A stretch of DNA of 64,000 bases from positions 3,756,455 to 3,820,454 of the forward strand of contig FJOG01000001.1 of the NCBI GenBank assembly GCA_900073065.1. Reading direction: 5' to 3'. A program made the position numbers and the translations under genes. This stretch comes from Phialocephala subalpina (Eukaryota > Ascomycota > Leotiomycetes > Helotiales > Mollisiaceae). Shown here in pieces: positions 24,565-63,900 of this stretch (position 1 is its first letter; each line of letters opens with the position of its first letter). The notes beneath the pieces are model-generated. The model ran no database searches and had not been told where the DNA came from. It saw nothing but the letters and a program-made list of their open reading frames with translations.

Positions 24565-26622
24565 TTAATGAATCTCCAGTTCCTGCCAAGCATTATCCTG
24601 CATCTTCACCAACTCTCCGTTCATAACACCATCCACATAAGCATCACCGACAATATAGAACCCCCCACCTTCTCTAGCTCGGAGGATGGCAGGAACACTG
24701 CAGCCTGCCATTATGCCGATGAAATCGTCTTTCTTACCATTAATGTGAGCCCATCCCACACATCCCCTCTTCGTCGTCATAAACCGCATATTATCATCCA
24801 GCACAGGAGCGAGTGTCCGTTCCGCAAACCCGGACGATAATTCATATGCGGAACTATGTTCCTCGAAGGTACTCTGTCTCAACCTGAACGCGGCCACGGA
24901 GGGATCGAAAGTGCCCGGCCGTATATCAGGATCGTCAGGATGTAGTGTCGAATATTCCGTCGCGAGATCTAACAACGTGCTATCGGAAACTCGGAACGAT
25001 CTGCTCCCTAATAACCAAGACACGATTCTGTCGTCTTGCTTGTGTGAACCTAGTACCCGTGAAACACTCTTTTCTTCTTCGTCGTGCTTCGTTAAAAGCT
25101 GGCGTGAGGCCTTGCCGCGACTTAGGAGGTCGATGTAGGTGTACCAACGTGCTAGGACGGCGGTTATTTTTGCTTCTTCGTAGCTATACCCTGTTTCCAT
25201 GGAGGTGAAGTATCGCGTCAAGGCGGAGACAACATGTAACCACATGCCTCCATAGCATGTGCACAATGATGTGTAAGCGTTGTTGGAATGCTTTGATTGT
25301 TGCTGTATCGGTATCGTGATATTGTTTTGAAATTCTTCGGGTGTAGGACAGATCCCATCGATCTTATCAAACAACATAGCTCGAACGCGAAGAACATCGT
25401 TGATCATTGAGATGGATCCCTTCGTTGTTCCAACTGCGTGATATTGAGGCCGTCTTGGTAGAAACTCCACTTTCATCTTCTGCAATCTGAATGGTGCTAT
25501 CGTTCGAGGCGCCTGGCATATATACTCCAAAGCTCTCGTCTTGTCATCGTCAAGAGCAAACCAGTTGATGGCCCAAGTTGGTAGTCCAAAAGTGTTGTCC
25601 TGCTTGGTACCAAGACAGAGCAGCCCCACAGTATCCAACTTGGATGTGGTAGTCGTGGCCGAGAGGGTGATTCCTATGCACAGGTCTCTGAGAGATTGCT
25701 TGTAGTTGGGTATCGGTACGTATAGGTTTGCATCGTATGAAAGGCCCAGCAAGGCGAAGACTTTGTCCCTCGGGTCCGTAGACAGGGCGGAATGAGTGCG
25801 ATACAATGCCTCGATGAAAGGCAGAGGTTTGACCTCCTCGGCGTCGAGTTGGAAGCGAACCAGATTCTCTATACTTCTGACTGACGGATGGAATCCTAGA
25901 TGATGGCTTTGAATCTCTGATACCCTCAATGTTAGGCTCTTCCAGTCGGTGTGCTTTTCTCCGCAGTGAACAATGGTTGTCCGAGCGAAGGCAAGCTCTT
26001 GCACGATCCAGACTCTTTTCCAATAAGGCCGGTCGAGAAATTGCACCAGCGAGGTATCACTCTCTTTCCCCAAATGTCCAGGGTCGGTAACGCTCGTGCA
26101 AAATGCGCGATTGAAGTCGTCGCCGGCTTCTCCAGTCCATGCATGCACTTCCTTCGCTCGCCGATAGATAGATCCCATCCAAATCAGTTGTTGATTTTTC
26201 TCAACCTTGTCCATCTGATTGATACAAATTGAATCAACCCAAAGACATCCAAGTTCTTTCGCTCTCAAGCGGCGTAAGGCTGACTCGAGGTTCGCCGTGA
26301 TTTGGACCGCGACATCGTTGATTGTGATTGTGGCAGTAATGTTCAGATCTCCCCAGCAATAGGAAAGTGCGCAGAACTCGGGTGGGTTGATGAGAGAAGC
26401 ATGCTCAAGGTTGCAATAGACATCGCCGTCGCCAGGCAGTAGCTTGAGAAGGCGGATCTCGTTGCGATCGGTGTCCAATGGCATGTACTCCATCGCATTG
26501 TAGGATTGACTGGTAATAACTGCAATAGGTCCGTCTTTTGTATCATATCTAATGTTGAATTGTCTCTCGGAGGCTGAAGAGCACAGAAGTTGCGGCTCTG
26601 ACCAAGGCAGGGACCCTGTCAT
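24565..26622 (-). CDS. HET domain protein
   Basis: A single exon of 685 residues from the first ATG. A complete heterokaryon-incompatibility (HET, PF06985) domain begins near residue 90: FCALSYCWGD, then LWVDSICINQMDKVEKNQQ, MGSIYRRAKEVHAWTG, LDRPYWKRVWIVQELAFA and the downstream STDPRDKVFALLGLS block. The C-terminal half has no recognised domain apart from a final segment (GDAYVDGVMNGELVK) common to many HET proteins. Such proteins trigger growth arrest or cell death after non-self recognition between hyphae or as part of innate immunity. No NLR part is attached here, unlike the gene at 60990. The neighbours are degenerate genes, the usual setting of fast-evolving HET loci. Confidence 0.88.
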   Translation of the reverse strand: MTGSLPWSEPQLLCSSASERQFNIRYDTKDGPIAVITSQSYNAMEYMPLDTDRNEIRLLKLLPGDGDVYCNLEHASLINPPEFCALSYCWGDLNITATITINDVAVQITANLESALRRLRAKELGCLWVDSICINQMDKVEKNQQLIWMGSIYRRAKEVHAWTGEAGDDFNRAFCTSVTDPGHLGKESDTSLVQFLDRPYWKRVWIVQELAFARTTIVHCGEKHTDWKSLTLRVSEIQSHHLGFHPSVRSIENLVRFQLDAEEVKPLPFIEALYRTHSALSTDPRDKVFALLGLSYDANLYVPIPNYKQSLRDLCIGITLSATTTTSKLDTVGLLCLGTKQDNTFGLPTWAINWFALDDDKTRALEYICQAPRTIAPFRLQKMKVEFLPRRPQYHAVGTTKGSISMINDVLRVRAMLFDKIDGICPTPEEFQNNITIPIQQQSKHSNNAYTSLCTCYGGMWLHVVSALTRYFTSMETGYSYEEAKITAVLARWYTYIDLLSRGKASRQLLTKHDEEEKSVSRVLGSHKQDDRIVSWLLGSRSFRVSDSTLLDLATEYSTLHPDDPDIRPGTFDPSVAAFRLRQSTFEEHSSAYELSSGFAERTLAPVLDDNMRFMTTKRGCVGWAHINGKKDDFIGIMAGCSVPAILRAREGGGFYIVGDAYVDGVMNGELVKMQDNAWQELEIH

Positions 26623-26903
26623 TTTGACAGTGGAATCTTGCTGCAAGGCTGAGAACCTAATGCTGCCCTCGTGTCGTCTCTTGATTGGTGAAACAGACCC
26701 AGGATTTCTGCCCCACAGATCATATTATGGATCGCTGTTCAGGTGTCGATTCAGCCTCGAGGCTCGAAGACTTCGGCAGTCAATCGGCTAGGGGACAGGA
26801 GCAGGCCAATGTTATACCAGCCTCCTCGCGACACCATTAGGTGCCCAACTGCACAGATTCACATTAGCACATCTCCTTTCTCTCTTCTTTCTTCCACGCC
26901 TCT

Positions 26904-28770
26904 TCACCATCCCCAAAGAAACAAGAAGAAAGAGAAAGACTTGCCACCACAAACTCCACGCTTCTCGCAAATTAGCATCATGCCAACCATCAAGTCGCTC
27001 AACATATGGTCCGTAAACACCAACCCATATGGCTCATACACCTTGCTAATTGTCTTTAGGATAGTATTAAACTCCATATCTGGGAAATAGTCCTTCGTCC
27101 AATCATTGTACGTTGAGAAGTTCTGGAAGCCGTCGAGGTCATCTTGATCGATTGCGCATTGATTGGATGGGGGGAGGGGGGAGGAAAGCCCGGCGGAGGA
27201 GCTTCGGCCCAGGTGAGGACGCCGCGGCCATCTGGTCGCCATCTAAACAAGTCCCCACTCCCATCAGCTATCCTCAAATACGCTCTCCACTCTTCGACCG
27301 TGATCTGGGGTTGTATTCCACCAAGCAGAACGATATAATTCAACAACGTATTCTCCGGCATCTCGAAATGCATCGTATCAAGACATAGAGCTCCTTGTCC
27401 GCGATTCGCTGGTATGTATTGTCGAATGCTTTGGTAGCGTGGACATGATGGTGCCTCTTCTTGTTCCGTACTCGGTGCAGGAATTGATGGTATTGCGTTG
27501 GGATATCGAGCAGCATGTACACTCGCCTGGCCCCTCGCATAAGCCTTATCTCTCGCCTTCTGTATCCTCGTCGCTGTCGCCCGTCTCGGATTCTCATACT
27601 CTGTTTCCGAGACCTCCGTGGGTGTCATAGAAGTCCAAATTGGCAAATCAGTTTTGTCCAGTCTATCAGCGAGAGAGATGAGATCGATAGTGTCATTGTG
27701 TACATCGTATCGGTTTCCTAGAAGTTTGGGTCCCATCTTCGTTGTATCGACGTATTTCCTTGCGTGTATGGTCCAGAAATCAGGATGGAGGAGAGAAGAG
27801 AAAAACGGGACAGGTGTGGGGTACGAGTCAACATGGTTCCAGTCTGGTGGGAGAGGAGTGATGGCGGGGTAAGCGGTGGTGGCTCCGATGAAATGGTTGT
27901 TCCGTGCAGCGTAGGCGTTAAACTAGGAATGGTGAAATAGTGCGCTGGAAGGGAGGTTGTTGCCTTCGATGAAGGGAGGGGTGTACATGCTAGTGAGAGA
28001 GGTTGTCTTTCCGCTTGTGATACTAAAAGTTATTCTCTCTAAAATCTCTTCAAGGTCTTTTCGGAAGCCTCTTCGTGTTCATTGTGGCGCATTTCGACCA
28101 CAACGAGGAGCCGCGACCCGCCGGAGTTTGCCGCCTTTCCACGGATTGGGTATTCCTTGCTCGATGGAGGTGTAGTTCCCATCGACGAGAGTTGTGAACC
28201 TAATAGATGGTCAACCCGGGACATTGGATAACACGGGAACTTGTACAAGGAGGTGAGCTCACCAAGGAATGACGAGGTGGTTCTCCAAGAAAAGACTGGC
28301 TAATCGTAGGCAGGGATCGAGGATGTTCCAGATGACGAGATTTTGAGCCTGCTGAAATGAATTTGTATTCTATCAACATTTGGCGAACTCACTTGCCAAT
28401 ATCCTCCAGCTTGCCCAGGCATACGAAAGAGAGGTACACTATTCGGATTGCCAACATTCCATTTGTTAAGTTCGAAGAGAGGGTTTATTTGATTGGTAGG
28501 TACCGTAAAAAGTAGACTAGTAGTAGGAAACAAAGGAGCAAAAGCTTCGACATCCTCAATTTCCCGTGTCGAGAATGCTTCAAAGCGGCGTCTTTGATAG
28601 GCATCGAGTGCTTCATATCGTCTTTGTTGATAGCCGGTGGGAAATATTGGTGATGAGCTTGGAGTCATGCCAGATTTCCCAGTCCCTGCAATCTCCTTGT
28701 GGTCTTCACCAACAGGATGGGTGTACTTGTCTGCTAAAGTGGTCAATCTCGGCCTCCCTGGAGGGTTCAT
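26904..28770 (-). pseudogene. Broken gene for an uncharacterised fungal protein
   Basis: Exons 28770-28393, 28348-28263 and from 28199 onward join in frame. The third exon then contains an in-frame TGA (28079-28081) and TAG (27923-27925), yet coding character continues past both: DLEEILERITFSIT, CTPPFIEGNN-like sequence, FIGATTAYPAITPLPPDWNHVDSYP and PDFWTIHARKYVDTTK. The frame is lost once more near 27160, after HPINAQS, where another frame carries FSTYNDWTKDYFPDMEFNTILKTI. Both stops can be explained by one C-to-T change each. The family was not recognised; it resembles anonymous hypothetical proteins with acidic, Trp/Tyr-rich regions next to HET genes. Function unknown. Confidence 0.55.
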
Positions 28771-30728
28771 CGTAGCTATCGCGGGTGGAGGAAGCCGTCG
28801 GAGAGGCAAGTGCTACCCACGCAGGTTCCAAGGTTATTGTCAGCCTCGAGTTAAGCTCGCCCTCGCCATAGTTTTCGGAATTGACATTGTCAAACCTATG
28901 GTGTCTTCGATCCATTGTGAGCAGGGAAAACAAAGGAAAGCGCGACGATTTGCTAGCCCATTTGCGGATGTCTAGCTACAAACAAAGAAAAGGAGGTGAA
29001 TACAATGAGAACCACACGCAAGAATGATTCTCAAGGGTATGATGAAATGTCACCTTCGCAGAATACTAGGAGCTAAATCATCCCATCCATCGTCATTGAG
29101 GAAGGCTCAAGATGGAAGACCTAGTATCTTTGATTGGCAGGGTAGGTAAACATGTTTGCAGAGGACGAAAAAAACGCGATGGATGAGCTGGGATCTCTCC
29201 TATACGGCCTTGTCGCAGGAGATCCGAAAAATAGTAGCATGGAGGGCAGTTTGTGAAGGATGAGTTGCGATATTGAGAAGGAAGGATCAGAAGACCAAGC
29301 AATCGAAGAAAGGTTGGGATATAAGATTGCGGTGTGGCTTGTGTGGCTCCAGCCACATGTGGCATCACCAAGCAAAATATCGCGATTCAATTATTATGCT
29401 CCTCCGATTACACACCCATTATAATAAAGGCGAATACAGTTGGAATATGACTTCTTGAACTTCTTGAACTTATGAAATAACTTACTTGATCGAGATCGTG
29501 AGCTGTGCACGTGATTCCGGCACTTGACCAAAATTTCGATGTTTCGTAAGAGCACATCCCTCAGCATGACTGCAGATTAGACCATGATCCTGACATCGCT
29601 TTAAATCCTGCGTCGTCGTCTTCGATGCATCGTCGGCCGCGGAATTGACCCAGCTGCCCAGACTCCAGAACAACGAGGGCTCCCAGCAACACGGCTCATG
29701 GGCTCGACGACGCCTTTGATGGGACATTGGTATCTTTATCGAACACGATCTGGCCAGGTTTGGTGAAGATATCCCTCACTTCAAGAACCCCATTTCTGCC
29801 ATTTCTAGTCAGCACATCGCGTCGCGGCCAACGTTATCACTAACGAGCCTGGTCAGATAAGTCTGTGTTTTCAGGCTACTTTTCAGGCTATTTTCAAGCG
29901 ATAGACACCAAAATCGACCACTTCACTTGAATTTTATTCAATTATCACAAATCAAAATCGTTTAAATTTCGACCTTCACTCTTAAAAGAAGTCAAAGTTG
30001 ATTATCTAAGCTCGTTCGATAAAATCCGAGTTGAGCTCAAAATCCAGATTTCCGCTTCAGCGTTCCTTCAGGGTAGCGGAAAGCCTAAAAGAGCATTGCA
30101 AGAAGTTAAGTATGGAGAACCAGGCTCGTGAGGTTACGCATGCATAGAATGCTCCGCTCTTATCTTTCATACCAGGAATGACCCTGCATAGCGGGTCCGA
30201 ATGTCAAATACAGGCTCAAGGAATGGCTGCGGCAGTGAGCTGAACCTCAAAGTTTATTCTCTATCACGGACATCCGCGTGTCACTTATCTTGCCGGTCTT
30301 ATCTCAAGCGGCCGAAAGCATGTTACCTCTGCATCGAGTTCAGCCTATTCTATCATTTCGAGCGTTTTCGTGCTGCAGAACCACATACCACGAGCCAATG
30401 GCAGCTTCAAACGTTCCTACACGAGCTGTCATGTTCATGGATTCAGGGGAGAAGCACAGGAATGCAGCTGGCCAATTCTAGAACTTGCACAAACAGGCAT
30501 CTCCATCATCCCCTGCATCAATCGTTGCTTGTACGATGTAAGCTCTCCACTTCTTGCTTGTACAAAATAAACTCTCCACCCCAACTCAAGTGATGGTGGT
30601 GGGTCCTCCACTTTTGAAGAAATGGGGAGTAGCTTCTGAAAGATAGCAAGTTCCTTATCCTGACCATCTGCCTCGACGTCTTTGCACTCCTGTTTTGTTT
30701 CCCTTCACACGCAATTCACGCCGACAAG
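28771..30728. other. Gene-poor stretch
   Basis: Nearly 2 kb without a supportable gene. The part around 29860-30060 is AT-richer, and short frames across the region carry no recognised motif. The last 150 bases should hold the promoter of the NCS1 permease gene. Confidence 0.35.
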
Positions 30729-32431
30729 ATGGAATTTCAAGAGAAGAAAGGTCCCGAGCCTGATTTGTACCAGACAGACTCAGGTCCTCGTCAAGGTCAA
30801 GTGACTCGAATCAAGAATCTTCGTGATCTTGAAGAGGTACCTTCAGTATGGACCAAGGTGCATCTTTTGAGTGAGAAACTCGGTGCAGAGACAATTGGTG
30901 TCGAGCAATTGCCTGAAGAAGCAAGGAATCCAAATCAGAAGCCATACAGTAAGCCCCCTCAATCAGCCGATCCTCTCAATTACTGACCAAGGCGCAGGTA
31001 CTTTCTTCGTCTGGAGCACTGCCAACTTCCACTACTCTGGATTCACAACCGGCGCCCTTGGGCCACTTCTCTTCGGCCTCGGATGGTGGGATTCATTCCT
31101 CACGGTCATCTTCTTCAACTTCTTGGCCGACCTCGCACCAGGCGTTATATCTTACCTCGGCCCAAGACTTGGAATGCGAAGCATGATCATTGTCCGATAC
31201 AGTTTTGGATTCTACTTGAGCAAGGTGATCGTTCTTCTGAATGCTATCACTTGTATCGGATGGATTATTATCAATACGGTTGCAGGTGGTGGACTCTTGT
31301 ACGATGCGGCTGATGCTAAGATGCCCTTGGTGGTAGCTATCATTATCATCCTCGTTCTGTGAGTACCCTCTTCAATCTCGCACTTTAAAAGCCTTGCTAA
31401 TGAATTTCTAGGTCACTCATCACTTCCTTCCTCGGATACCGCGCCATCCACCTCTACGACAAATACGGCTGGCTAGTCCTAATCGTCCTCTCCATAATCG
31501 TCGTCGGCTTCGGTGGAAAGCACTTCGTCGATGTCCCCATGGCTAAGGGCGACGATGCCCGTCTCGGCGTTCTCTCATACGGCGCACTTGTCTTTTCTTG
31601 GGGAATCACCTGGGTACCTCTCGCTGCCGATTACTCTCTCTACATGCCTTCCAAGACTCCAAAATGGCAAACATTCTTCTGGACTTTCTCGGGTATCTAC
31701 ATCGGCTCCACACTCGCCTTCCTAGTCGGTATCGCGATCGCAACCCTCATCTCGAACCCAGATCCATTTTACAACTTCCCCGCTGTATATGATGATCGTG
31801 GAATCGGAGGTTTGGTTGGAGCTATTTTCGAGGGTCATGGAACCGGTGTGAGAGGATTCGGGAGATTCATCGAAGTCCTCCTCGCGCTTTCGATCATGGG
31901 CGCCAACATCCCCAACATCTACTCCTTCGGTCTCTCCGTCCAAGCAATCTCTACTTGGACCCAGAAAATTCCCCGCATCCTCGTCACCCTTTTCGGATTC
32001 GCCGTCGCCGTCACAGTCTCCTGCATTCTCCGAAACCGATTCGTTGAAGCTCTCGAGAATTTCTTAAATGTTTTGTCTTACTGGTGTACACCTTTCGCCG
32101 CCGTGGTTATGACTGAGCATTTTTGGTTTAGGAGAAGGATCGGGTATAATGTGGAGGATTGGAGTCGGCCGGCTGGATTGCCGACTGGGATCGCGGCTTT
32201 TGTGGCGTGGGCTTGTGGTATTACAGCTGCGTTTATGGGGGCGGATCAGACGTGGCTGGTTGGGCCGGCTGCTAAGAGCATTGGTGGCGCTGATATTGGA
32301 TGGGAACTTGTAAGTTTTATATCTTTCCTGGACGGATGAGGATTAATGCTAACGTGAAATAGGGTGCCGCTGTTGGAACTGGTGTGTATCTAATCGCAAG
32401 AACCATCGACTTGAAGATTACCGGTCGCTAA
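30729..32431 (+). CDS. NCS1 family purine/cytosine-type permease
   Basis: Exons 30729-30948, 30998-31358, 31412-32309 and 32363-32431 encode 515 residues. The N-terminal cytosolic part is followed by STFFVWSTANFHYSGFTTGALGPLL, the first helix pair of Fcy2-like nucleobase:cation symporters. DLAPGVISYLGPRLGMRSMII, GITWVPLAADYSLYMPSKTPKW and SIMGANIPNIYSFGLSVQ follow, and about twelve hydrophobic segments are visible. Relatives carry cytosine, adenine, guanine, hypoxanthine or pyridoxine across the plasma membrane; the substrate is not predictable. The short last exon (GAAVGTGVYLIART) supplies the final membrane segment. It is the plus-strand neighbour, tail-to-tail, of the first UstYa-type gene, and nothing ties it functionally to that gene. 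Confidence 0.88.
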
Positions 32432-32549: not shown

Positions 32550-33672
32550 TTATTCAGTAACCGGTGAAGGGCCGACAATCGACTGAATATCGTCCATCCT
32601 TCTGTCTTCAATCCACTTCACCGCCTCCTCCCTATTCCTACACATATGCGGCTGTCCCTCCCCAGTCGCATCGAGCAAACTCTCGCTTCCCTCTAATGTC
32701 ATGTCTGCCATGCACATGATCTGATTGCGTAGGTCTAGTTGATGGTCAGTCAATAACTCTTTTTCAAGCATGGGAGAGGTTATTGAGGGGAGTGGTGACC
32801 TACATTCGAAGCAGTGTGCGGCGTGGAAGTCGTTCCTCTCGCCTTTGAAGCCGAATTTCGTGCCGTTGCTGATGACGAGTTGATGATAGGAATCTACTGT
32901 GTAGTACAGGCAGTGCAGAGCATGAGTCCAACTTGCTTCGAAGACTGGGCCTTTGTGGATTGGGTCTGTGACGATTGGTTTTCCGAGCATTGGATGTTGC
33001 TCGTAGTCTGGGATCAAGACGCTTCCGCTTCCGACTGTTTGTTGTTAGAAGAGAAGACAAGTGGAGGAGGGAGGAGGGAGGGAGGAGGAAGATTTACGAG
33101 GCATCAACATATCCCAGTTCTTTCGAATTTCCATTCGGTTGGAGTCATCAGTCATGTTCGGGACAAACTTCTCCTCCTCCGGAGTAAGTAATGTGTACTT
33201 GTGGCTCGCTACACAAGTTCCAATCAGCATCTTGTTTGTCTCTTTGACGTTGGTTCAACCTACTTGGAATATACAGCCCATTAATATCACCACCCGTCTC
33301 CGTCTTACTCGTATCCCACCCCGAAATTCCCCCACTCGAACCTCCCAACTTCGTCCCTCCCGTCAGACTACTCAGATTCCAACCCTCCTCTGTTAACACA
33401 CCACTAGTCGGCAACAACAACATAATGATAATACCTTGGAGAAAGATTATTATTCCCCATCTCGACCAAGTGAGGATGGTAGATAATCTGGAGCTGTTTT
33501 CGTATCGTGAGATGCGCTTCGCGTGGTTCTTGTGTAGGAAACCGTCGGATGCGAGTGTAGTTTCGGAGTCATTGTCGTGGTCCATGTGGTCGAGGTGATC
33601 GAGTTCGTCGTTTTCGAGGTCGATGTCTAGGGAGTCGTAGCGGTGGGGGTCTTCTTTGACGAGAGGTGCCAT
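32550..33672 (-). CDS. UstYa-family (DUF3328) oxidase, copy 1
   Basis: Exons 33672-33264, 33208-33098, 33034-32804 and 32734-32550 encode 311 residues. An acidic cytosolic N-terminus (about 65 residues) precedes one membrane segment (GIIIFLQGIIIMLLLPTSGVL). The UstYa domain follows (PF11807): LTPEEEKFVPN, the first HxxHC motif in SWTHALHCLYY and the second in DFHAAHCFEYLRNQIMCMADMTLEG. The two HxxHC motifs are the proposed metal-binding catalytic residues of enzymes that cyclise, oxidise or desaturate peptides in ustiloxin, phomopsin, victorin and cyclochlorotine biosynthesis. The fourth intron junction restores the diagnostic EYLRNQIMC, which confirms the model. Type II membrane topology in the secretory pathway is expected. 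A second member lies 1.9 kb away, and a repeat-rich secreted protein lies beyond it. Confidence 0.9.
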
Positions 33673-35552
33673 TTTGAGTTTTTGTGACTGGTACTATGAG
33701 AGATCGAGGTGATGGAAGGATAATGGATCAAAACGAATGTAATAAAGGAGTGGTTGAGTAACAGAACGAAGAATCCAGCTTCTAGAAAGTAAAGAAACCA
33801 GTTCTTGCGTCAAATCAACAACCAAAAATCGACTCAGAAGACCTCACAGAGGATGGAGAACTCAAAAATCCACGATCACGAACATACAAACCTCAGATGG
33901 ACACCAAACACCAAGAAAGCCAAGCCCAGTCTCCTCGAGGCTGGTGAGCATGACTAGCTCCAACAATCAGACGGCTCTACCGCGCACATCAGACACTAGT
34001 CCTCCTCATCCACACCCGCCACAACTCCATCACGGTTTCATCCGTACGTTTGACAGGTCTCGGATCTCAAGATCTAATCAGATAGATTTGCCCGTCTCGG
34101 GTTGCCGCTCGCTTAATTAGCCCCTGGGTTCTCGAAATGTCGCCAAAATGCGGGGCAGACAGGGTAAGCTGAGACGACTCCGGCCGCAGGGACTAGGATT
34201 TATCTGATCGAGGTTGGGCAGGCATGTGGTGCCGATTTTCGTTTCGAGGTTTGAAAATTCGGAGATTTCGTTTGGATGGTTGAGACGACATGGTTGATGG
34301 GGTTCGAATGCCGAAAAGGGGGTGCGGGAAGTGCGGGTTGGATCAAGAGCCATATTGAGGGAGATGGGGAAAGGAGAATTTTAGGGGTCTGACTGCATCT
34401 CAATTTTGACGACGGTATAGATCAAAAGTTTGAGAATTGTCATTTGCGTGACTTTTGATTTTGGGTGTTCTTTCATTCTTGCTGAGAGAAGAAACATTTT
34501 CTGCTGTCAAGTGGAGACTTCACCGTCAGTTTGGCCAAGCATGTCTCAAACTGCTACGAAAACACCAAAACTAGAGCTCGAGATTGGAATCACAACTTGG
34601 CCACTAATTTGCAGATCCCCGGACCGGAAGCGCCGCTGTAGTAGTGAAGCCAACCCAAAATTGTGCCTGTCACCGGTATGATGATATCCACCCAACTCTA
34701 TCTTTATCCCCATCTTCAAATTTGTAGACCTGGTTCGTGGGTTTCCAGTCTCGATGAGCACTGTTTCAACAAAATCACGCCTTCTTCAGCTCGGCTCTCT
34801 CCACCAGTCATCACAAGAGTTGAAAGGATTTCATCCACCTTGAATCACACCATTATTACCTAGAATAGAAAGAAGCTTATCAGATGGAGCCCGAGTCCTG
34901 AGCTTCGACCTCCTCAAGCCCCTTGAAGTTCAATAGTACGAATCCCACAGGCCCCGAATCTAAGGGGCAGATTCCTTCGAGAAATGAAGTACAATGGGCC
35001 CGGCAAAGAAAACCAGAATTGATTTTGGGGCCGATCCGTCTTCGATATGGAATCGTCGTGGATACTGAAAAGGTTGATGCGTGGATAGGAAATTATAGTG
35101 GGAGAAGATGGGCCGCGGAGACAGTCGAAGGCCATCACCAAAAGTTAGAGACACACTGTTCAATTTGCGATTTACGCTAATTATTGCTTGATGGAAAAGA
35201 GAAGTGTGGGTAATGATTATTGGATGAGCTATATCCTGAGACTATTGGGCTTGCATATGCTGTTTGAGATGGAATTTAAGCATTGCGGAGGAAAGCATAA
35301 CCGCACTGGCAAAGTGACAGGTGATGAGCAAGCCGCCGAAAGAACGTACTATTCTCAAGATCGTAAACAGTTCAAATGAGAAAGTTCAGAGAAACGCAGC
35401 TCCAGTACAGCAGAAGAGAGATGCTTTACTTGGCCTTAAAGTTTTTGGAATGTCAGAGAGCTAACACCTTTCATGATCAATAAATCGCCATAAAATGCTT
35501 AATTATGCTCGTCTTGATTCTAGATACACGCTCTAAAGTTCAAAGATCCAGT
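33673..35552. other. Gap between the two UstYa-type genes
   Basis: About 1.9 kb with no supportable gene on either strand. The first few hundred bases should hold the promoter of UstYa copy 1. Short frames were checked for a signal peptide followed by repeats, as in small RiPP precursors, and none was found. Confidence 0.4.
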
Positions 35553-36468
35553 TCAGTTCGGGCTCACATCTCCCCTCTCCATATTGCCCACAGAGTTATC
35601 CAACGCCCAATCCCTCACAGCATTGAAATTCCTGCACTGATGATAAGAGTTGAGTTCAGGCCATGGCAATGGGTCTCCATCCATAAGATAGAACGTAAAG
35701 ACTCCAACATCCGCATTGCACTGGACGTTCATTCTTAGGATCTCCAGGCAGTGATCGGTGTGCATCTGCAACTCCTCATCGCCGCCAGCAAAGTTACCGT
35801 TGCCGAGCTCGACGTAGTGGTCTTTGTATGTTACTTGACGGAGGAGATTGATGCAGTGGAGTTGATGGAAGACTTCAAGGCCAACACGATAGCCTTCTAC
35901 GCCAGTCTTGGGGTGCTTTGCTCTGAGGTGGGTCTTGGGCATGCCGATGATTTCTAATTCTTCGTCTGTGATCACTTGGTCGCCAACTGTGGGTTGTTAG
36001 TTCCAGCTCTGGATGATTGAGGTGACTGTTCTTACTGTCGTACGAGATCGCGTGCCACGCTTTGTCGACTTCTGCTCCCTTACCAACGTAGGGTGATCCC
36101 TCTCCCATCGTCGCATTGAATTTCACTTTCTTATAATGAACGGCTTCTGCAGCAGGTGCTAAAACCTTGTTAGTCGTGCACCATGCTTACTGGAGATCTA
36201 GCTTACAGTATGCTGAGAATTTGCGCACATGCTCTAACGTTGAAGCTTTTGTGAACATCGCCGACATGAACATCGTGAAGGACAGTAACAGCAGCACAGC
36301 GTGCACCAGCCACATCCATTTCCCACTGAACCTCGATCTTGGCTCTGGTTCTCTGTGGTCCTCCTCATCCTCTAACAGCGTCGAATCCGAAGTCGAAGTC
36401 GACGATCTCCTTGGAAACGCCTCTGTGAACTTCTCGTCATTCTGAACAGCATGGTATTTTGAAGCCAT
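35553..36468 (-). CDS. UstYa-family (DUF3328) oxidase, copy 2
   Basis: Exons 36468-36207, 36158-36036 and 35986-35553 encode 272 residues. A Ser/Glu-rich N-terminus precedes one membrane segment (WLVHAVLLLLSFTMFMSAMF). The second exon gives SPAAEAVHYKKVKFNA and EVDKAWHAI, the usual approach to the UstYa domain. The catalytic part has both motifs: FHQLHCINLLRQ and HTDHCLEILRMNVQCNADV, each HxxHC. The C-terminal YHQCRNFNAVRDWALDNSV matches the tail of many UstYa proteins. This copy belongs to a different subtype from copy 1 (HQLHC/HTDHC against HALHC/HAAHC). Paired unlike UstYa-type enzymes are common in fungal peptide clusters, where each handles a different oxidation. It is transcribed away from the repeat protein at 37764, with 1.3 kb between them. 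Confidence 0.9.
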
Positions 36469-37763
36469 AATCGCGATCAAAAAATAATTACTCCTGGCCA
36501 GCAAGTGAAGAATAGAAAAGAAGGTTAAATGAGCGAATGTACTTGACCAGAAGCAATTGCTGAGAATCGAAGAAGAGAGAGGGAACAGAGAAACCTGAAC
36601 TTGAGACTCAAAAGAATGAGGGAATATCAATTCATGATGGTGGAATTTCGAGGGGGTGCAAGTGCAAGCGACCCGGGCGTCTGATCGCTGCCCGTCAGAT
36701 TATGCGAGATAACAATTATCAGATCTTCTGAAACGTCTCGCCTGGACGAGCGATGTTTGGAGCTACCGATCGTGGGATTAAGAACGTCATGGGGACACCA
36801 GGAGATGAACACCCAAAGAACACTGAAACCCGTAATGGGGACGGATGGGGCCTGAATGGAGGCTAGAAACATTCTGAGGATAGACGCCGAGCATATCGGA
36901 ACCTAATCTCGCCTTGGTCGCCTTCTTTGTCGATATCGCGATTGAGGTTTTCGAACGTCAAGATGCTGATTTCGTGAATTCGTATCGAGGAAGGCTTTGC
37001 CGATTGTATGAGATCGATGTTGCACGTTGTGCATGAATTTTGACTTCATCCCAACTCTGCGCGCGTCAACCTGCCACTCGTGCCTGCAAACCGTGCCGCT
37101 TCCCGAATACTAAGAGCTTAGCGCCACCAGAATGGTTTCGCAGGCAAAGTCCATGACTTGCAGCACCGGAAATCGCTTCCACTTTCGCTTTCTGCTCCTT
37201 CAGCATTGATGTTGAGGGATGTCTTGAAGTGCTCTGAGACGGTAGATCTGGTTGGTTAGGCTACTCTTTCCCCGCGATACCTGTCACACTGCCCCTTGTC
37301 GCTAAATCTCCGTGCATCAACCCAACCCAGAGAGCCTCCATCGAGATATCGTGGCAGGTTCTGGCGGCAGCCAGTGTTTGACTGATGAATGAGAGACACG
37401 GTTCCGGTTATCTTTGGGTATGATTAGACCGTGGATACTCGGCTAAGTCCAAATGCGAATGCTGTGGAATAAAGGTCCGCGGGTCATCAATCAGTTTCTG
37501 TCTCGAACTCGTTCATGGATCGAATTCAGGATTCCTAGTCGTCCATCGTCTGAAGTTGGCCGTGGTGACAGTAGGGACGTGCTGGTGCGTGCAGTCGTTG
37601 CGCTCGAAAATGACCTGATGTATAAAGTAGAGTACGCCTCTTGCTTATGTTCTCAAATCCACTCACACCTCATCCGCTCAACCTGACCCACCTCCTCCTT
37701 CCGACTTCACTTCATTCGTTTATACTGCCGGCCAGTGATTTATCATTCATACACTCCTTCAAC
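36469..37763. promoter_or_regulatory. Divergent promoter between UstYa copy 2 and the repeat protein
   Basis: A 1.3-kb intergenic region between divergent start codons. No gene is seen. The 100 bases upstream of 37764 are CT-rich with short leader-like spacing (ccacctcctccttccgacttcacttcattc), as in highly expressed fungal genes. Confidence 0.4.
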
Positions 37764-39054
37764 ATGTATACTTCAGTTTCAAACGTTATTACTTTGGGCC
37801 TTTTGGTCTCTGCGCCATTGACATCGGCCTATGTCATCCCCGGTAAATCCGCCGAGCTGGATAAGAAGGATATTGTGAGCAGATTCAACACGCCGTATTA
37901 CACAACACGTGCTAACAAACAATAGGGAGGACCGCTTTCCTGGGTCAGGTCTGTCCTTCCTTTGGATGCACGACACCACACCGAGGCTCAAATTGCTGTA
38001 AGTCACACTGCCCAGCCACACTGTGACCAATAACCATACTGATGGAATACAGGCCAAGAAAGCCAAGGCTGGTGCCAGAGATGTCGAGATCTTGGAGACA
38101 AGACACCACACTGAGGCTCAAATCGCTGTAAGCATCATCGAGTTGAATACATAAACACAAGACTGACATCAACATAGGCCAAGAAGGCAAAGGCTGGCGC
38201 CCGCGATGTTGAGGCTCGTGAGCCCCATCACACTGAGGCACAGATCGCTGTAAGTACAGCCCACTTGGGTCCATCTACAAAGCTAACAAGACTACCAGGC
38301 CAAGAAGGCTAAGGCTGGCGCGCGTGATGTAGAGCTTGAGGACCGTGAAGCTCATCACACCGAAGCCCAAATCGCCGCCAAGAAGGCCAAGGCAGGAGCA
38401 CGCGATCTCGAAGACCGCGAGCCACACCACACTGAGGCCCAGATTGCCGCAAAGAAAGCAAAGGCTGGTGCCCGTGACGTTGAAGTCGAAGCCCGCGAGC
38501 CCCATCACACTGAAGCTCAAATCGCAGCTAAGAAGGCTAAGGCTGGCGCAAGAGATGTTGAGGTTGAAGCTCGTGAGCCCCACCACACCGAAGCCCAGAT
38601 TGCTGCCAAGAAGGCCAAAGCCGGTGCTCGCGACGTTGAAGTTGAGGCCCGTGAACCCCATCACACTGAGGCTCAAATCGCTGCCAAGAAAGCAAAGGCT
38701 GGAGCTCGTGACGTCGAGGTAGAGGCTAGAGAGCCCCACCACACCGAGGCTCAGATCGCCGTAAGTTTACCAAGACTCCAATCTTCTACTCCAAAACTGA
38801 CAATACCACAGGCAAAGAAGGCCAAGGCAGGTGCTCGTGATGTCGAAGAGCGTGAAGCTCATCACACCGAGGCTCAGATCGCAGCTAAGAAGGCGAAGGC
38901 CGGTGCCCGTGATGTCGAAGAGAGAGACCCCCATCACACTGAGGCACAAATTGCCGCCAAGAAGGCTAAAGCTGGAGCTCGTGATATCGAGGAGCGTGAA
39001 GCCCACCACACTGAGGCTCAGATTGCGGCCAAGAAGGCAAAGGCTGGCAACTAG
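37764..39054 (+). CDS. Secreted protein with twelve HHTEAQIA repeats; candidate RiPP precursor
   Basis: Six exons (37764-37874, 37926-37997, 38053-38127, 38178-38249, 38299-38760, 38812-39054) encode 344 residues; every junction is phase 0. Residues 1-22 (MYTSVSNVITLGLLVSAPLTSA) form a signal peptide. A 16-residue spacer (GGPLSWVRSVLPLDAR) is followed by twelve copies of a unit of about 22-26 residues: HHTEAQIA, AKKAKAGAR, then a variable acidic link such as DVEVEAREP. The architecture (signal peptide, many near-identical units, basic and acidic spacers) is that of Kex2-processed fungal repeat proteins, the class that includes UstYa-linked RiPP precursors and alpha-type pheromones. However, the units have no Lys-Arg site; basic sites are KK and single Arg. 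They have no Tyr, Phe or Trp. With two UstYa genes next door, a peptide precursor is the leading reading. A structural or His-rich secreted protein is the alternative. Confidence 0.85.
37974..39051 (+). repeat. Array of twelve coding repeats, partly split by introns
   Basis: HHTEAQIA occurs twelve times, each followed by AKKAKAGA (the last by AKKAKAGN and the stop). Units 6-9 share the identical link DVEVEAREP, while links elsewhere differ in length (for example ILETR, AREP, LEDREA, EEREA). Codon choice differs between units with the same protein sequence, so identity is held at the protein level. Introns of 49-55 bases split units 1, 2, 3 and 9 at exactly the same point, after HHTEAQIA. Confidence 0.9.
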
Positions 39055-41389: not shown

Positions 41390-41830
41390 TCGAAAAGAAC
41401 GAGATTTGAGAAAGTTTTTAAATTTATTAAATTAAAAGTTTTATATAAATAAAATAAATTCTTATTAAATAAAAGCTTTATATTTAATTAATAATAAATA
41501 ATAAATAATAAATATTTAATATATATATAATAATAATAAATTTGAATAATATTATTTTTATATAATTAAATAAATAAAATAAAAATAAAAATAAATATTT
41601 ATATTTATATAATATATTAATACTCAAAAATAAATTTAGTAATCTAAGGCCTTAATTAAAGCCCTTTAAATATATAATTATTAAAACTCGAAAAACTTTT
41701 TTAATATATTAAAATATATATATAATTTTTCTTAATTTAAAACCTCTTTTTTTTTTAGAATATTCTTCTTATAATAAAAAGTTACTATTTATATAAGGAT
41801 TATATAGCTAGCCCGTGATAATTTACGTGA
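41390..41830. repeat. Extremely AT-rich block
   Basis: About 440 bases consist almost only of A and T (runs such as taataataaataataaataata and atatatatataat), with a gradual rise in AT starting near 41160. Nothing codes here on either strand. Such blocks in ascomycetes usually are transposon relics mutated by repeat-induced point mutation. It separates the UstYa/repeat-protein region from the exporter gene. Confidence 0.85.
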
Positions 41831-41963
41831 TACTATTAATATAATTACCTATGTGAATATCACTATCCTAGCTCTTATTTACACGTAGCCTATAGTCCGA
41901 ATAACAGCTTTCTCCTTTGTCCAATCGCCGGATCCTCGATTCTTTCCGCGGTAATCGGTAGGC

Positions 41964-43956
41964 CTAGACGCTAGCTACCTTCTCCTTCTCCTCCGTCTCC
42001 TTGCTATCATGATTAGGAAGCTTCTTCAAGGGAATTACAAGGGCTAGGAGGACAGTGAATGCCGAGCCAGTCAGAGCACAAGCGAAGACGTCCTTGATCC
42101 CAACCATGTAAGCACCGAGCACAGCGTCCAGATCTGCACCTTTGAAGACCTGACGGAGATCGGATGCACCACTGTTTATGACCGTGAAAGCGCTGATGCC
42201 GGGGGCACTGGTCTTGAGTGCGTGCAACATGCAGTTGGAAAATATGGACTGCGCTACCGCGATGAAGTAGGCACCACTAATAGATTGGCACACTGATCTT
42301 GGAGTTAGTGGAAACAGCACATTTATAGCAGAATATGGATTCTTATTAGGTACTTACTGAGCATGATACCAGTGGAGTTTGCCACGTCTTCGGGCTTAGA
42401 GAAATTCTGCACTGCGATCATCGGTATCTGGTTACCGAGGCCGACGCCAAACCCGAAGAGCACCTGAGGACCGATGTATCGAGCTTTAGATGAATCGATG
42501 TCCAAGGTGTAGAACAGAGCTACGCCAGCAGTCATCAAGAGTGCACTCGTCAGCTGGTAGGGCTGCAGGAGGTGTGTCTTCCCAACGGCGGTACCACCGA
42601 CCATGGCTCCGAAAGCAAAGAAGGCCAAGAAAGGAATGGTGTTGACACCGCTCATGATGGCCGACTGGCCGTGGATAGACTGGAAATAGATAGGGAGGTA
42701 GAATATAACTTGGTAGTCGACGGCATTAGACCTTGGCAAGGAATCGCTGGTTAGCCATGTTGGAGACAACAAAGAATAGGTGGCAGCTAGTTACTTACAT
42801 GTAGGAGTATAAAGCGTTAGCCCATGTTATACGCGTCTTCAGCAGCTCCAACGGAATGATGGCGCGTAAGCCTTGGAGCCACTCGATAATGACGAAAATA
42901 AGGGTGAAGGAAACCCAAAGGACCAGAGTGGCAATTACAGGGACTTCGCTCCATGCTTTGGTCTGGCCGCCCCATTGCAGAGCCAAGGTCAAGCAAACGA
43001 GCGAGGCGAGCAATAAGCTGAAGCCCGGAAGATCCAGCTGTAGGATGATCTCTTTCCACGTGGCTGGAGCGGGCTTTATATGCTTGGGCACATTCAAGAA
43101 GAGCAACAACAGGACGACGATAGGGCCTCCGAGCGGCAAGTTGATCCAGAAACACCATCGCCAGGAAACTTCGCTCGTGAAGGCGCCCCCAATCACGGGC
43201 CCGAGAATAGTCGATACCATGAAGACGCCCATCCAAGTACCAATCAGCACAGGATGCTGCTTGGGCTGGGCCACGTACTTGATGACGAGGGCAGAGCCGC
43301 CGAGAACACCGGAGATTCCCAAGCCTTGAAGGCCTCGACCGACGATCACGGAAGCGCTATTCGGAGCTGCTGCGGCCTATGAATCAGAACCTCGGAGTCA
43401 GTATTACCATATTAGGAGTAATTGGGAGTGATAGGGGAGGAGGGAGGAGGACAATGTTTCAAGAAGCTTAAAGCATTTGTCTTGATGTCTCAAAATCCTT
43501 GAGACATTCAACTCTAAGAAGTTGAGGACTTACCACAACGCTCCCAACCAAGAAGATTCCGACAGAGGCAAGGTAAACGAACTTGACATTGAGGTACTTG
43601 TAGATCTTGCCGAACAGTGGCGAGGAAGCGCCGACGAGGAGGAAAGTGGCGCTTCCATACCATCCAACATCGTTGAGTCGGCGGAATTTGTCGGTGATGA
43701 CGGGAATTGCGGTGGAGATAATGCCAACCTCCAGACCTACAAGGAGAGTGCTCATAGAGATGGTGAACATAATGAGGAACAGCCGCAAGCCTGTCGCGTA
43801 CTCGGGCTCGGGCGCGTCTCCAGCAGGCAAGGCTACGTCTTCGTCGCCATTCTGCTTCTCTACACCATCCTGCTTCTCTTCCTTTTGAATGCGGTCGGGT
43901 GCAGAGTCCTCGACGTTGCTGGTCGAGGTCGCGGGTGTTGGATTGCTTGCTTCCAT
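41964..43956 (-). CDS. MFS exporter, 14-TM drug:H+ antiporter (DHA2/TRI12) type
   Basis: Exons 43956-43534, 43376-42799, 42731-42358 and 42292-41964 encode 567 residues. A charged cytosolic N-terminus of about 55 residues precedes LFLIMFTISMSTLLVGLEVGIISTAIPVI. The DVGWYGSATFLLVGASSPLFGKIYKYL segment, VGRGLQGLGISGVLGGSALVI, and the antiporter motif C region WMGVFMVSTILGPVIGGAFTSEVSWRWCFWINLP follow, all typical of fungal DHA2 exporters of toxins and drugs. The last exons give GFGVGLGNQIPMIAVQNF and SISGAYFIAVAQSIF. These pumps often sit in secondary-metabolite clusters and export the product. Here the gene lies 2.9 kb beyond the repeat protein, across an AT-rich block, so membership in that locus is possible but unproven. 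Confidence 0.9.
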
Positions 43957-44274
43957 CTCGGATTGCTGTTCTGCGTTGATGTTGCTCGCTGTATCTTGTC
44001 AGGCTGTTCAGAGGATGGAGAAACGACGAGGATCTATTGAATCGGGATCGGGAGAGACGAGGCTCAGAAGAATAGAATGGGAAAAGTCCAAGAGCTGGGG
44101 TCGCGTTGAATTATTATTATGAGTTATAAAGGAAGGTGGTTCATGAGTATTAATATCGAGAGTTCAATCGTCCGCCGTGTTGTATATGTACATGCGAACC
44201 CCTATTGGTTAAGCGGGGCCGAGGGAGCGTGGAGAGCGTCTTCGTCCGCCGCGTCACGTGCCAGCCCCAGCGTA

Positions 44275-59161: not shown

Positions 59162-60989
59162 AGGATGGAAGTGTATGATTTTTGTATGATAATGAGGCGT
59201 TTGTAGGGATAGTAGGACGCACGGAGATGCTGGGAATGAAAATTTGAAGACTCTTTCTCCTTTTTGGATTTTTATGTGAATTTGAGAATCGTGACGTTCT
59301 TGATAAGTAAGAACACGTATGGATCTTTGAAAGCTTCGAGACGAGCTTTACAATCTCGAGAGAATAATATTGAATCCGTAAAGCGTAAGCAAAGTTGCCG
59401 AAATAGCAAGATAAAATTCACCACAAAATCACTTAATTTTCAGAAAGGAAACCACTATCCCCCAGCTCTTGCTTCAAACCACAATCCAATCTATCCCTCT
59501 CAATCCAACCCCCCACCCGACCCAAGAAACAAAGCAACAACGGCCATTCCAAAGAATCTTGAAATATTACTTTCTTGGAATAAAGTCTAGCTTCTTTTTT
59601 TAATGAGGGGTATGGCTGAAGACGGGAAGGGACCGACTTCGACGAGATAAGAAGAGTGATGTTGAAGAATATGGATTTGTGATGGATTTTATGCGCCCTT
59701 ACGAAGGCCGATTCGACAAACGGACTTTTAGTAATAAGACTGCCTCGACTGAACTTCTTACTATTGCTCTATTGGTCGCTGTGCTCCCGGAGACTTCTTT
59801 GGTCTCTTTCTAGGGCGGCTTCGGTTTACGGACTAGAAGCCAACGAGAGTTATCGGGGGCCGGTTTTAAATCTTTGATTGGGTTATTCTGAGGCATTAGG
59901 AAAGCTTAATAAGATAAAGGTGGCAAAAGCTAGCGAGATGACGAACGTGTGTCTTGCGTGGGAAGGTGTGAACGAGGCCAATACGAAAGGTAGGTTTTAA
60001 AGTAATGAGCCATGCACGTGATTTTCCCAGCCCAAAAATCAAGTAAGGTTATTTCGGAGAGGAAGGCTCGGACCATAACTCAGTACTTTAAAACCTACCC
60101 TTCGGATTTGAGAGTCCTAGTCATAGCCACGCGGCATATCATGCTATTTGTTCGTCCATCCCCAGGAGCAGGTGTGCCGTCCGGACATGACGGAAGCCTC
60201 GGGATCCCAGGGACGGGAATCGTTTCTCCGGTAGGTGCGATGTGCTGGACGAGAGGTTTGGTGAACACAATATTATGTACTGTACCCGAAAATCAATAAT
60301 AGCTTTCAACCACTATGACTTTCTGTGTATTGTATCTTTATGCCCATATGTCTACACTCTAACAATCTGTTGTCTCGGCTTCAAATTGTGGCTCAAGATT
60401 GTTCAAAGCCATAGTGCCCAAAACCTTGCGAAGGGGTCACGACGAAAACTACACGGGGAAGTTTTCCCGAAACCATGAGAAGGGGACACGACGAGAAGTT
60501 GTACCCACTTTCCGCCGTGGTAGGATCTTAAACTCACGTGAGCTTTTAAAGGAGCTTTTAGCCAGGAGACAGAGGCATTGTGAGAAATAGAGGCATTTGT
60601 GATTTAGCCAGCCGCGCTGCGAGTGCCAGCCTTAGATTAAAGTGCTTAACTTACTTGACTTAGAAAGGCTTCGAGTTAAAAAGGACTGAGAGTTTGTTTC
60701 GGGTTAGGAAGGGCGGCAACGCCCCCTACTTGTGGGTCTTATGGGTTCCAATGGCTTAGCGCCTTGATTAAGCGAGCTCAGGCCCCCGGGTTTCGGGCTG
60801 CTCCGTAGGAGTACTGTGCCGCGCCACGAAATAAATCACGTGTTGCAGATTCCCCGCACCTTGCGAAGGGCTATGCGCTGGACACTCTTATCCCACACTC
60901 CACTCTAGACTAAAACCGTGGAACTTCGATCTTACTTTAACTTCTTCAGACACGCGGGAGACACACGAGATCCTAATCCATGCGCAATC
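59162..60989. other. Gene-poor stretch with an inverted-repeat element
   Basis: About 1.8 kb without a supportable gene. It contains the inverted repeat at 59984-60104 and sequence around 60600-60850 with no coding character. The end should hold the promoter of the NLR gene. Confidence 0.4.
59984..60104. repeat. 121-base inverted repeat, MITE-like hairpin
   Basis: The arms 59984-60004 and 60084-60104 are inverted copies with 20 of 21 positions pairing (ggtaggttttaaagta against tactttaaaacctacc). Pairing continues imperfectly about ten bases into the loop (tgagccatg against the complement of cataactca), with mismatches of the C/T type. No coding sequence or clear target-site duplication was found. 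It could be a small non-autonomous element or the end of a decayed one. Confidence 0.6.
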
Positions 60990-63900
60990 ATGCGTCTTTT
61001 GGAGATCAAAGGCCCGGGCGAATTCAGCCTGGTTCAGGTTGCCACCCATAATACTCTTCCCTACGCAATACTTTCACACACTTGGGTACATGGCCAAGAA
61101 GTCACCTATAGAGATCTGGTTAATGGTACCGGGGATGGAAAGACTGGCTACGAAAAGATCAAGTTTTGTGGGGAACAAGCAACGAAAGATGGCCTACAAC
61201 ACTTCTGGGTGGACACTTGCTGTATTGATAAGTCGGATTCCACCGAGCTTACAACTGCTATCAACTCTATGTTCCGCTGGTATCGAAATGCGAAGAAATG
61301 CTATGTGTACCTGGCGGATGTGTCAACCCCTGGCGATGACGCAGATGTTCAGGCAAAGCAGAGCATATGGGAAGCGGCTTTTCGGGATAGTAAATGGTTT
61401 ACTAGAGGCTGGACGCTTCAAGAACTTATTGCTCCGGCGACAGTCGAATTTTTCTCTCAAGAGGGCAAGCGATTAGGTGACAAGAACTCACTCGAAAAGC
61501 TGATTCACAAGATTACTAGCATTCCAATTCAGGCTCTGCAAGGAAATCCCTTCTCTCATTTCAGCATAGCTGAGCGGAGAGAATGGGCAGTGCAACGCCG
61601 GACAACGGAGGAAGAAGACATAGTATACTGTTTACTAGGTCTTTGCGAGGTGTCTATGCCGCCTATCTATGGCGAGGGAAAGGAGGCCGCGCTAAAAAGG
61701 CTCCAAATGACCGTAAGAGAATTCTCTAAAGACAGCAGCGAGCCGAAAGACTTAGAAGGTATGGCATATCTAGTGTGACTCAGCCTATGCTAAGTTCTGG
61801 TGTATAGACAATATGGCTCCTTTCATCGTACCATTCGACAGAAATCCCAACTTCACTGGTCGTGGGACCGAGCTTGCTAAGGCTGAAGAAAAATTATTTG
61901 GGGGAAGTCAAACCACAAAAGTTGCAATCTGGGGGCTTGGTGGTGTAGGCAAGACGCAGTTGATGCTCGAGCTTGTCTACCGAATAAAAGACAAGTATAA
62001 GAATTGCTCAGTCATTTGGATACCCGCAACCAACACGGAAAGTCTTTACCAAATGTACCTCGATATTGCGCGACAGCTTGGAATACCTGCTTGGGAGGAC
62101 AAAGAAGTGGATGTGAAGAAACTTGTGCAAGAGTACCTGAGCAAGGACAACGCTGGCCAGTGGCTGCTTGTATTTGACAACGCCGACGATATCGATATGT
62201 GGATCGCGAAGCCGGGATCTGGATCTGGATCTGGATCTGCGCAGGAATCCGGCGGTCTGATCGACTACCTACCAAGGAGCAAGCAAGGTTCCATAGTGTT
62301 CACGACGCGGGATAGGAAGGCGGCGGTGAAGCTTGCACAAGAGAATATCGTGGAAGTTCAGGAGATGAACGAAGAATTATCTGTGCTACTGCTGCAGAAA
62401 TGCCTGGTCAATCCGGATCTTGTTAAGAAACGTCAGGACGCTACAGCTCTGCTTACAGAACTTACTTACCTCCCGCTGGCCATCGTTCAGGCAGCCGCGT
62501 ATATCAATGAGAACGGGATAACGCTTGCAGAATATCTTTTGCTCTTAGAAGGACAGGAAGAGGAGCTCATTGATCTGCTGAGCGAGGAGTTTCAGGATTC
62601 CGGGAGATATCGCAACGTGAAGAACCCAGTAGCTACAACCTGGTTAATTTCTTTCGAGCAGATTCGGCGACGCGACGCTCTAGCAGCAGACTACCTGTCA
62701 TTCATGTGCTGCATCGATCCGAAGGATATTCCGCAGTCTCTTCTTCCGCCAGGACCGTCGCGCAAGAAAGAGATAGAGGCGATTGGGACGCTCAACGCCT
62801 ACTCCTTTATCACCAAACGGGCCGCAGACCTAACTCTCCATCTCCATCGGTTGGTACATTTGTCAATGCGGAACTGGCTTCGGAAAGAAAATTTGCTTAC
62901 TCGTTCGACGGAGGAAGTAATTACGCGACTACAGGAAGTGTTTCCGGACGACGACGACCACAAGAACAGAAGTGTCTGGAGAACATACCTGCCACACGCG
63001 CGTTATGTACTGGAATCTAATCTAGTCGGCAAAGAGTGGCAGAGCAGGATGGATCTTATATGGAGGTATGGAATGTGCCTCTTCGAAGACGGACGATGGA
63101 ATGAGGCTGAGGCTGCAATCACTGAAGTTCTCGAAATCGAGAAGAGAGATCTTGGCGCGGACCATCCTTCTACGCTAATTAGCATGGCCAACCTAGCGTC
63201 GACGTATAGGAATCAAGGACGATGGGATGAGGCCGAAGAGCTTGAAGTGCGAGTGATGGAGACAAGCAAGACGAAGCTCGGAGCGGACCATCCTTCTACG
63301 CTGATTAGTATGGCTAACCTGGCGTTGACGTATAAGAATCAAGGACGATGGGATGAGGCCGAGGAGCTTGAGGTGCGAGTGATGGAGACAAGGAAAACAA
63401 AGCTCGGAGTGGACCATTTAGACACGCTGATTAGTATAGACAACTTGGCATCGACGTATAGGAATCAAGGGCGATGGGATGAGGCCGAAGAACTACAGGT
63501 GCAAGTGATAGAAACGAGCAAGACGAAGCTCGGAGCAGACCATCTAGACACGCTGATTAGCATGGCTAACCTGGCGTCGACATATAGGGGTCAAGGACGA
63601 TGGGATGAGGCCGAGGAGCTACAAGTGCAAGTGATAGAGACAAGCAAGACGAAGATTGGAGCGGACCATCCAAACACGCTGATTGGTATGGCCAACTTGG
63701 CGTCGACGTATATGAATCAAAAACGATGGGATGAGGCCGAAGAGCTACAAATGCAAGTGATAGAGACGAGGAAGATAAAGCTCGGAGCGGACCATCCAGA
63801 CACGCTAATTTGTATAGCCGACCTAGCGTCGACGTACTGGAACCAAGGACGATGGGATGAGGCCGAAGAACTACAGGTGCAAGTGATGGAGACAAACAAG

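Follow-up and report, generated by a model that had tools for sequence, protein, structure and literature searches.

A di-histidine repeat precursor beside two UstYa genes in Phialocephala subalpina: a probable secreted-peptide module with a sister locus in the same genome

Ustiloxin, phomopsin, asperipin-2a and other dikaritins derive from precursors that combine a signal peptide with repeated cores and that adjoin UstYa/DUF3328 genes carrying two HxxHC motifs. The class is defined by the UstYa/DUF3328 enzyme, while an older definition places a tyrosinase in the cluster as well (both as cited in PMC12048977). According to the same source, proteins of the UstYa type hydroxylate, chlorinate and join in transacylation, besides forming ethers. 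A second set of comparable systems comes from the Umemura 2020 survey of Kex2-processed repeat proteins (KEPs), in which types G-3 and G-8 are described as di-histidine KEPs by DUF3328 genes (PMC7329392). Table 2 of that survey reports DUF3328 within 15 genes for 57 of 64 G-3 members and 45 of 49 G-8 members, and the genera listed for G-3 include Phialocephala, Cadophora, Rhynchosporium, Hyaloscypha and Botrytis. The subject of this report is a stretch of 64,000 nucleotides of the P. subalpina genome (contig C51, positions 3756455-3820454; hereafter the window), in which two UstYa genes, U1 and U2, stand beside a gene for a secreted protein with twelve repeat units, each beginning with two histidines. 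A di-histidine precursor beside DUF3328 is a kind already in print.

The precursor gene lies on the forward strand at 37764-39054 and encodes 344 residues in six exons (37764-37874, 37926-37997, 38053-38127, 38178-38249, 38299-38760 and 38812-39054). This model, like those of U1, U2 and the related precursors, was spliced by hand from splice sites, without transcript support, and signal peptides were judged from hydropathy and by eye. The hydrophobic N-terminus is a signal peptide of about 22 residues (MYTSVSNVITLGLLVSAPLTSA; 37764-37829, forward strand) that ends in the AXA-like VSAPLTSA. The array of twelve units follows on the same strand (37974-39051); four introns fall within it, the units are spaced by 24-26 residues (n=12), and the identical stretch HHTEAQIAAKKAKAG is present in every one of them. 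KEPs are recognized by at least three tandem repeats of at least eight residues, a number that the array exceeds, and it was also picked up by Tandem Repeats Finder. Among fungal genomes, the homologue and pattern searches covered this one (68.1 Mb in 119 contigs), where a degenerate pattern for HHTEAQIA gave 14 matches, 12 in the window and two on contig C56, with none in the reversed control. The repeat array is not due to chance. A Pfam scan of the protein returned zero matches, and NCBIfam, run on this precursor and on that of contig C8 described below, gave a single match far under its cut-off.

Selection on the unit can be read from its codons. Across the 12 copies the 15-mer HHTEAQIAAKKAKAG is constant, and the 13 of its 45 nucleotide positions that vary are all third positions and silent. 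Summed over the 66 unit pairs, there are 476 synonymous differences on 660 sites against zero nonsynonymous differences on 2310 sites. This silent-only variation argues that the whole 15-mer, including AKKAKAG, is under strong selective constraint and that the copies are probably old. The introns offer a further record of array growth, and of intron loss or gain, in that those of units 1, 2, 3 and 9 (within 37998-38811) share one codon boundary (IA|AK), so that the position recurs in four of the twelve units. When the five introns of the gene were compared, four of the ten pairs outscored all 200 shuffles; three of these pairs are among units 2, 3 and 9, and the fourth joins the leader intron to that of unit 2, while the unit 1 intron resembled none of the other introns of the gene in this comparison. 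This common position suggests an array that expanded from a unit already carrying an intron, a view to which the likeness of intron sequence lends weak support.

Both UstYa genes are on the reverse strand. U1 (32550-33672; exons 33672-33264, 33208-33098, 33034-32804 and 32734-32550) encodes 311 residues, scores 57.8 bits against PF11807 (cut-off 25) and contains HALHC and HAAHC. U2 (35553-36468; exons 36468-36207, 36158-36036 and 35986-35553) encodes 272 residues, scores 190 bits against the same profile and contains HQLHC and HTDHC. Each has an N-terminal hydrophobic anchor, and the two are unlike, with 28% identity over 101 residues. A search of the PDB sequences, with E values up to 1 allowed, found no solved relative of U2. 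U2 and the precursor stand head to head, 1295 bp separating the two start codons (36469-37763). The preliminary description of this DNA had reported two dissimilar UstYa genes with two HxxHC motifs each, close to a signal-peptide protein of twelve units, and its coordinates and counts for all three hold. A genome search with the PF11807 profile gave 56 matches, which correspond to 44 genes in 33 loci, a lower bound, as U1 itself was missed. At that density a randomly chosen point would be expected to have about 0.0065 UstYa genes within 5 kb, and two are seen; UstYa genes cluster, however, and the two neighbours do not amount to two independent draws.

The arginines of the precursor mark out its units. 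There are 24 after the signal peptide, 23 of them exactly at unit borders and one in the leader. Twelve precede HH, either directly (two) or with one E/D-A/P dipeptide between (ten; R-EP, R-EA or R-DP), and 11 of the 12 units are followed by an Arg right after AGA. An X-A or X-P dipeptide behind a Kex2 site is described as a known Ste13 signature, typical of alpha pheromones (PMC6339444), and peptides obtained from repeat proteins of fungi have led to the proposal of cleavage after a single Arg (PMC9769878). The border pattern fits Kex2-like cutting followed by Ste13-like trimming to peptides of about 16 residues starting with HH, and the predicted main product is the 16-residue HHTEAQIAAKKAKAGA. 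Calculated monoisotopic masses of the linear forms are 1630.8903 for HHTEAQIAAKKAKAGA, 1786.9914 with Arg retained, 1673.8961 for the last unit and 976.4726 for HHTEAQIAA. In the genome, the kexin P-domain, the DPP-IV N-domain and Ste2 were each matched once. Lysine pairs occur 13 times in the precursor, 12 within units and one in the leader. Simple cleavage at KK, which would give a shorter core (HHTEAQIAA), is less probable, because AKKAKAG is as invariant as HHTEAQIA and is kept as far as AKA in the paralogue on contig C56.

That paralogue is the sole further place found by the protein search of the genome. It encodes 113 residues with a leader beginning MYTS, followed by two complete units (HHTEAQIAAKKAKAS) and then the remnant HHKSTKR. 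Both full units retain HHTEAQIAAKKAKA at 14 of 14 residues, and one is preceded by KR-EP-HH, a dibasic and canonical form of the border signal of the window. An apparent relative in viral contigs (L020), with E 4e-4 relative to the candidates and 48% over its best segment (query residues 18-72), was set aside as a chance match of Ala/Lys-rich sequence.

A sister module was found on contig C8 (L035/L036), where relatives of both window enzymes occur together and score best among the UstYa loci read, which were 10 of the 32 outside the window and did not include C71, the top match of U1. The U1-like gene (26420-27379, forward strand) and the U2-like gene (28877 down to about 28051, reverse strand) are followed by a precursor of 171 residues with a signal peptide and three HHKGAGG... 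units (30273-30837, forward strand). Genome-wide, the top non-self match of U2 is on C8 (136.7 bits; next C83, 120.3), and for U1 contigs C71 and C8 are nearly tied (46.2 and 45.4 bits). The order U1-U2-precursor is that of the window, with U1 inverted at C8, and the last two genes are head to head in both loci, with a start-codon gap of 1395 bp at C8 (30273 versus 28877). Unit borders at C8 are RR-HH twice and R-HH once, and an R-HHKGAG pattern matched three times genome-wide, always within this precursor, with zero in the reversed control. The two leaders look alike (MQFTSLTQLLTVALMVSAPLAQA versus MYTSVSNVITLGLLVSAPLTSA), with an intron in phase 0 between leader and units; the first intron is in phase 0 in the C56 precursor as well. 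Common descent of the HH precursors is likely, not proven, because signal peptides easily resemble one another. The kinship was judged by leader, HH starts and neighbours, with the rest of the core left out of account; C8 units differ from those of the window in being longer (about 43 to 48 residues) and Gly/Ala-rich; the two units written out contain a single Phe apiece. A scan for clustered R-HH over 23 loci and the window picked out the window, C56 and C8 precursors as true arrays, and four further two-match clusters elsewhere were judged to be chance. Because the repeat scan of the loci calls for four equal 4-mers within a single frame, other precursors may escape it. Downstream at C8 lie open reading frames (ORFs) for an M28 peptidase and a FAD-binding protein. 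The C8 locus supports the proposed link between the UstYa pair and the HH precursor.

As in the dikaritins, a repeated-core precursor adjoins UstYa genes, and the pair is of the class-defining UstYa/DUF3328 kind; on the other hand, the tyrosinase of the older definition was not detected nearby, and HHTEAQIAAKKAKAGA has no Tyr, the core residue of the known ethers. No tyrosinase matched on C8 or within the window, where the closest match along C51 is about 570 kb away, and no methyltransferase was named among the window ORFs scanned with Pfam (17 of the 53 of at least 160 residues). Tyrosine-ether chemistry like that of ustiloxin or phomopsin is unlikely here, because the core is without tyrosine and no tyrosinase was detected near. 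The earlier view of a dikaritin-like cluster is partly supported: it holds for the architecture, a UstYa pair by a repeat precursor, and falls short for the core and the tyrosinase. A substrate without tyrosine is itself no bar, given the reported versatility of UstYa proteins. The genome also holds the classical form, on contig C112 near 1,343,466 (L040 from 2967), which served as a positive control: seven DA(D/N)(T/S)ATLYKTN units with KR between them (KR-ADADTATLYKTN and variants) lie about 2 kb from UstYa matches, and by its sequence this is a tyrosine-bearing precursor of dikaritin type. Three of its seven units have an XP dipeptide after KR, and since these lie beside UstYa, dipeptides of Ste13 type are no argument against UstYa action. 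Types G-3 and G-8 share secreted tandem di-histidine repeats, mostly near DUF3328, a comparison made with their description in PMC7329392 and not with their unit sequences. That survey counts dibasic sites (KR, RR, KK and RK in the KEP criterion), whereas the borders in the window are single Arg, the one dibasic pair inside the unit being KK; C56 has KR and C8 has RR. One or both of the window and C8 modules would be expected to fall in G-3 or G-8. Neither HHTEAQ nor HHKGAG occurred in the full texts searched (figures and supplements lay outside their scope), and, going by titles and the opening lines of abstracts, none of the papers among the matches listed concerned a di-histidine UstYa product.

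The gene anatomy, the repeat, the selection on its unit, the order of the Arg sites and the sister locus with both UstYa relatives are shown. The best explanation, to which we give a probability of roughly 0.68, is a small secreted-peptide module of the UstYa-linked KEP kind, and for the window precursor we infer its cleavage, its trimming, the action of UstYa and any chemistry that follows. The precursor would enter the secretory pathway, where a Kex2-like protease would cleave behind Arg on both sides of each unit, a Ste13-like dipeptidyl aminopeptidase would strip the single E/D-A/P dipeptide, and carboxy-trimming would take off the final Arg. This would release as many as twelve copies of approximately HHTEAQIAAKKAKAGA, the last ending in GN. 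Both membrane-anchored UstYa oxidases would act on the units; the likeliest site is at or close to the N-terminal histidine pair, proposed because HH is what the cores of both modules share. A more specific version is tentative and rather doubtful: that a U1-type/U2-type pair recognizes an N-terminal His-His, exposed once Arg sites are cut and dipeptides trimmed away, and installs a histidine oxidation or cross-link. If so, the remainder of the peptide would be free to change entirely, as between the 16-residue Lys/Ala core and the Gly/Ala core of 43-48 residues.

Several facts weigh against a UstYa-linked module of this kind, and the strongest of them is the paralogue without detected UstYa. 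PF11807 had no match on the 1.43-Mb C56 contig in a search that was not exhaustive and also missed U1; tblastn with U1 and U2 found none in the 30 kb around the paralogue; and Pfam, run on 15 of the 17 ORFs of at least 150 residues there, named no UstYa, the families being beta-lactamase, aldehyde dehydrogenase, ankyrin and other common ones. A bare regular expression for the HxxHC pair had one reading-frame match near the paralogue, unsupported by homology. At C83, home of the next relative of U2, the clustered R-HH scan found no array. The C8 units share little with those of the window past HH, and, the locus having been found while UstYa loci were being read, its adjacency to UstYa is not an independent draw. 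The window precursor is without KR or RR, its borders being single Arg, and its core lacks Trp, Phe and Cys as well as Tyr. UstYa-family genes are also used by polyketide and non-ribosomal pathways (PMC12048977). The claim that the repeat protein is a precursor modified by the UstYa pair is favoured by the recurring gene order at C8 and disfavoured by C56; the preliminary description had taken homologues consistently away from UstYa genes as a sign against it, and one of the two lies beside UstYa and the other does not.

The alternative that survives best, at a probability well below that of the UstYa-linked module, is a linear and unmodified secreted signal, pheromone- or hormone-like, cut by Kex2, Kex1 and Ste13, with the UstYa pair unrelated or coincidental. 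It would account for the Ste13-type dipeptides ahead of 10 of the 12 units, for the C56 paralogue without detected UstYa and for a core that has no aromatic residue for known chemistry. It has more difficulty with two adjoining UstYa genes in an order repeated at C8, and the tyrosine-bearing precursor on C112 has its XP dipeptides beside UstYa too. In one survey, mating factors and pheromones are given as without DUF3328 neighbours, with three exceptions (PMC7329392). The window unit shares with ascomycete alpha-pheromone precursors the signal peptide, the repeats and an Arg plus E/D-A/P before the mature peptide, but it is unrelated in sequence, has neither a Cys pair nor PGQ, and has UstYa neighbours. 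A mating pheromone identity is rejected, since a gene of alpha-pheromone type, carrying CGYPGQPC six times, sits elsewhere on the same contig (C51:3,237,970-3,238,674, reverse strand). The CGYPGQPC-type pattern had 15 genome matches, six clustered and nine scattered, against eight in the reversed control. The form RCGYPGQPCG has been reported from Ploettnerulaceae, Drepanopezizaceae and Mollisiaceae (PMC10569646).

Considerably less probable is that an N-terminal His-His lets the peptides bind metals such as copper, or makes them antimicrobial, with UstYa tuning this by oxidation or secondary to it. Peptides with an N-terminal His are known to bind metals, and HH stands straight after Arg, or after Arg and a dipeptide, at every unit of the three precursors (12 in the window, three on C56 with the remnant, three on C8) despite the differing C8 core. 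Against this, none of the families named for the 17 scanned ORFs of the window handles metals, and the low amphipathicity of the peptide (muH 0.21) gives no hint of a membrane-lytic one. Least probable of all is an unprocessed secreted or wall-associated protein with a structural unit in a chance neighbourhood, for although the long Lys/Ala-rich repeat lacks dibasic KR/RR, 23 of 24 Arg are at unit borders, the unit stays constant between spacers that differ in both length and sequence, and C56 and C8 have KR and RR at the equivalent place.

A possible regulatory link is a weak lead. The stretch CTGCCGGC...ATC.TTCAT (37725-37750, forward strand) is a candidate shared 5' element that begins 39 nt before the precursor ATG, and CTGCCGGC also occurs upstream of the other two precursor ATGs, by 28 nt on C56 and by 77 nt on C8 (L017 4755; L036 2197). 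An 8-mer was likewise shared over 400 nt in 42 of 2000 shuffles, and a longer CTGCCGGC pattern matched 10 times in the genome (reversed control zero), just three of these being HH precursors. Of the seven others, C14:72227 sits about 21 kb from a UstYa match.

Further along the window, a major facilitator superfamily (MFS) gene on the reverse strand (ORFs at 41964-43998; PF07690 61.4 bits in ORF 42798-43376) corresponds to the exporter gene of the preliminary description; it is a possible cluster exporter, about 3 kb past the precursor and beyond an AT-rich block. This block (41400-41900) is sharply AT-rich and resembles repeat DNA degraded by repeat-induced point mutation. A HET-domain ORF (60909-61775) opens a region (60909-63923) that continues with about six 42-residue repeats (126-bp period, 84% matches), TPR-like by eye and perhaps part of an incompatibility-type gene; a second HET gene is at 24565-26724, and a RelA/SpoT domain (PF04607, 45.3 bits) lies within a fungal protein at 1555-2586. 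Outside the window, C43 encodes near 1,603,600 (L021, reverse strand) a repeat protein rich in Gly, Pro and Asn (NGPANG..., RAGPPPPQ) whose start is signal-like; the UstYa match with the highest score lies less than 10 kb away, and the protein is not a clear repeat precursor.

Di-histidine precursors by DUF3328 genes are widespread according to the survey in PMC7329392, and the literature searched names no product or mechanism for them. In P. subalpina, one genome holds two modules with the same enzyme pair and different cores, plus a paralogue without detected enzymes, which together form a natural three-way comparison. This comparison makes the effect of UstYa on His-His directly testable by mass spectrometry.

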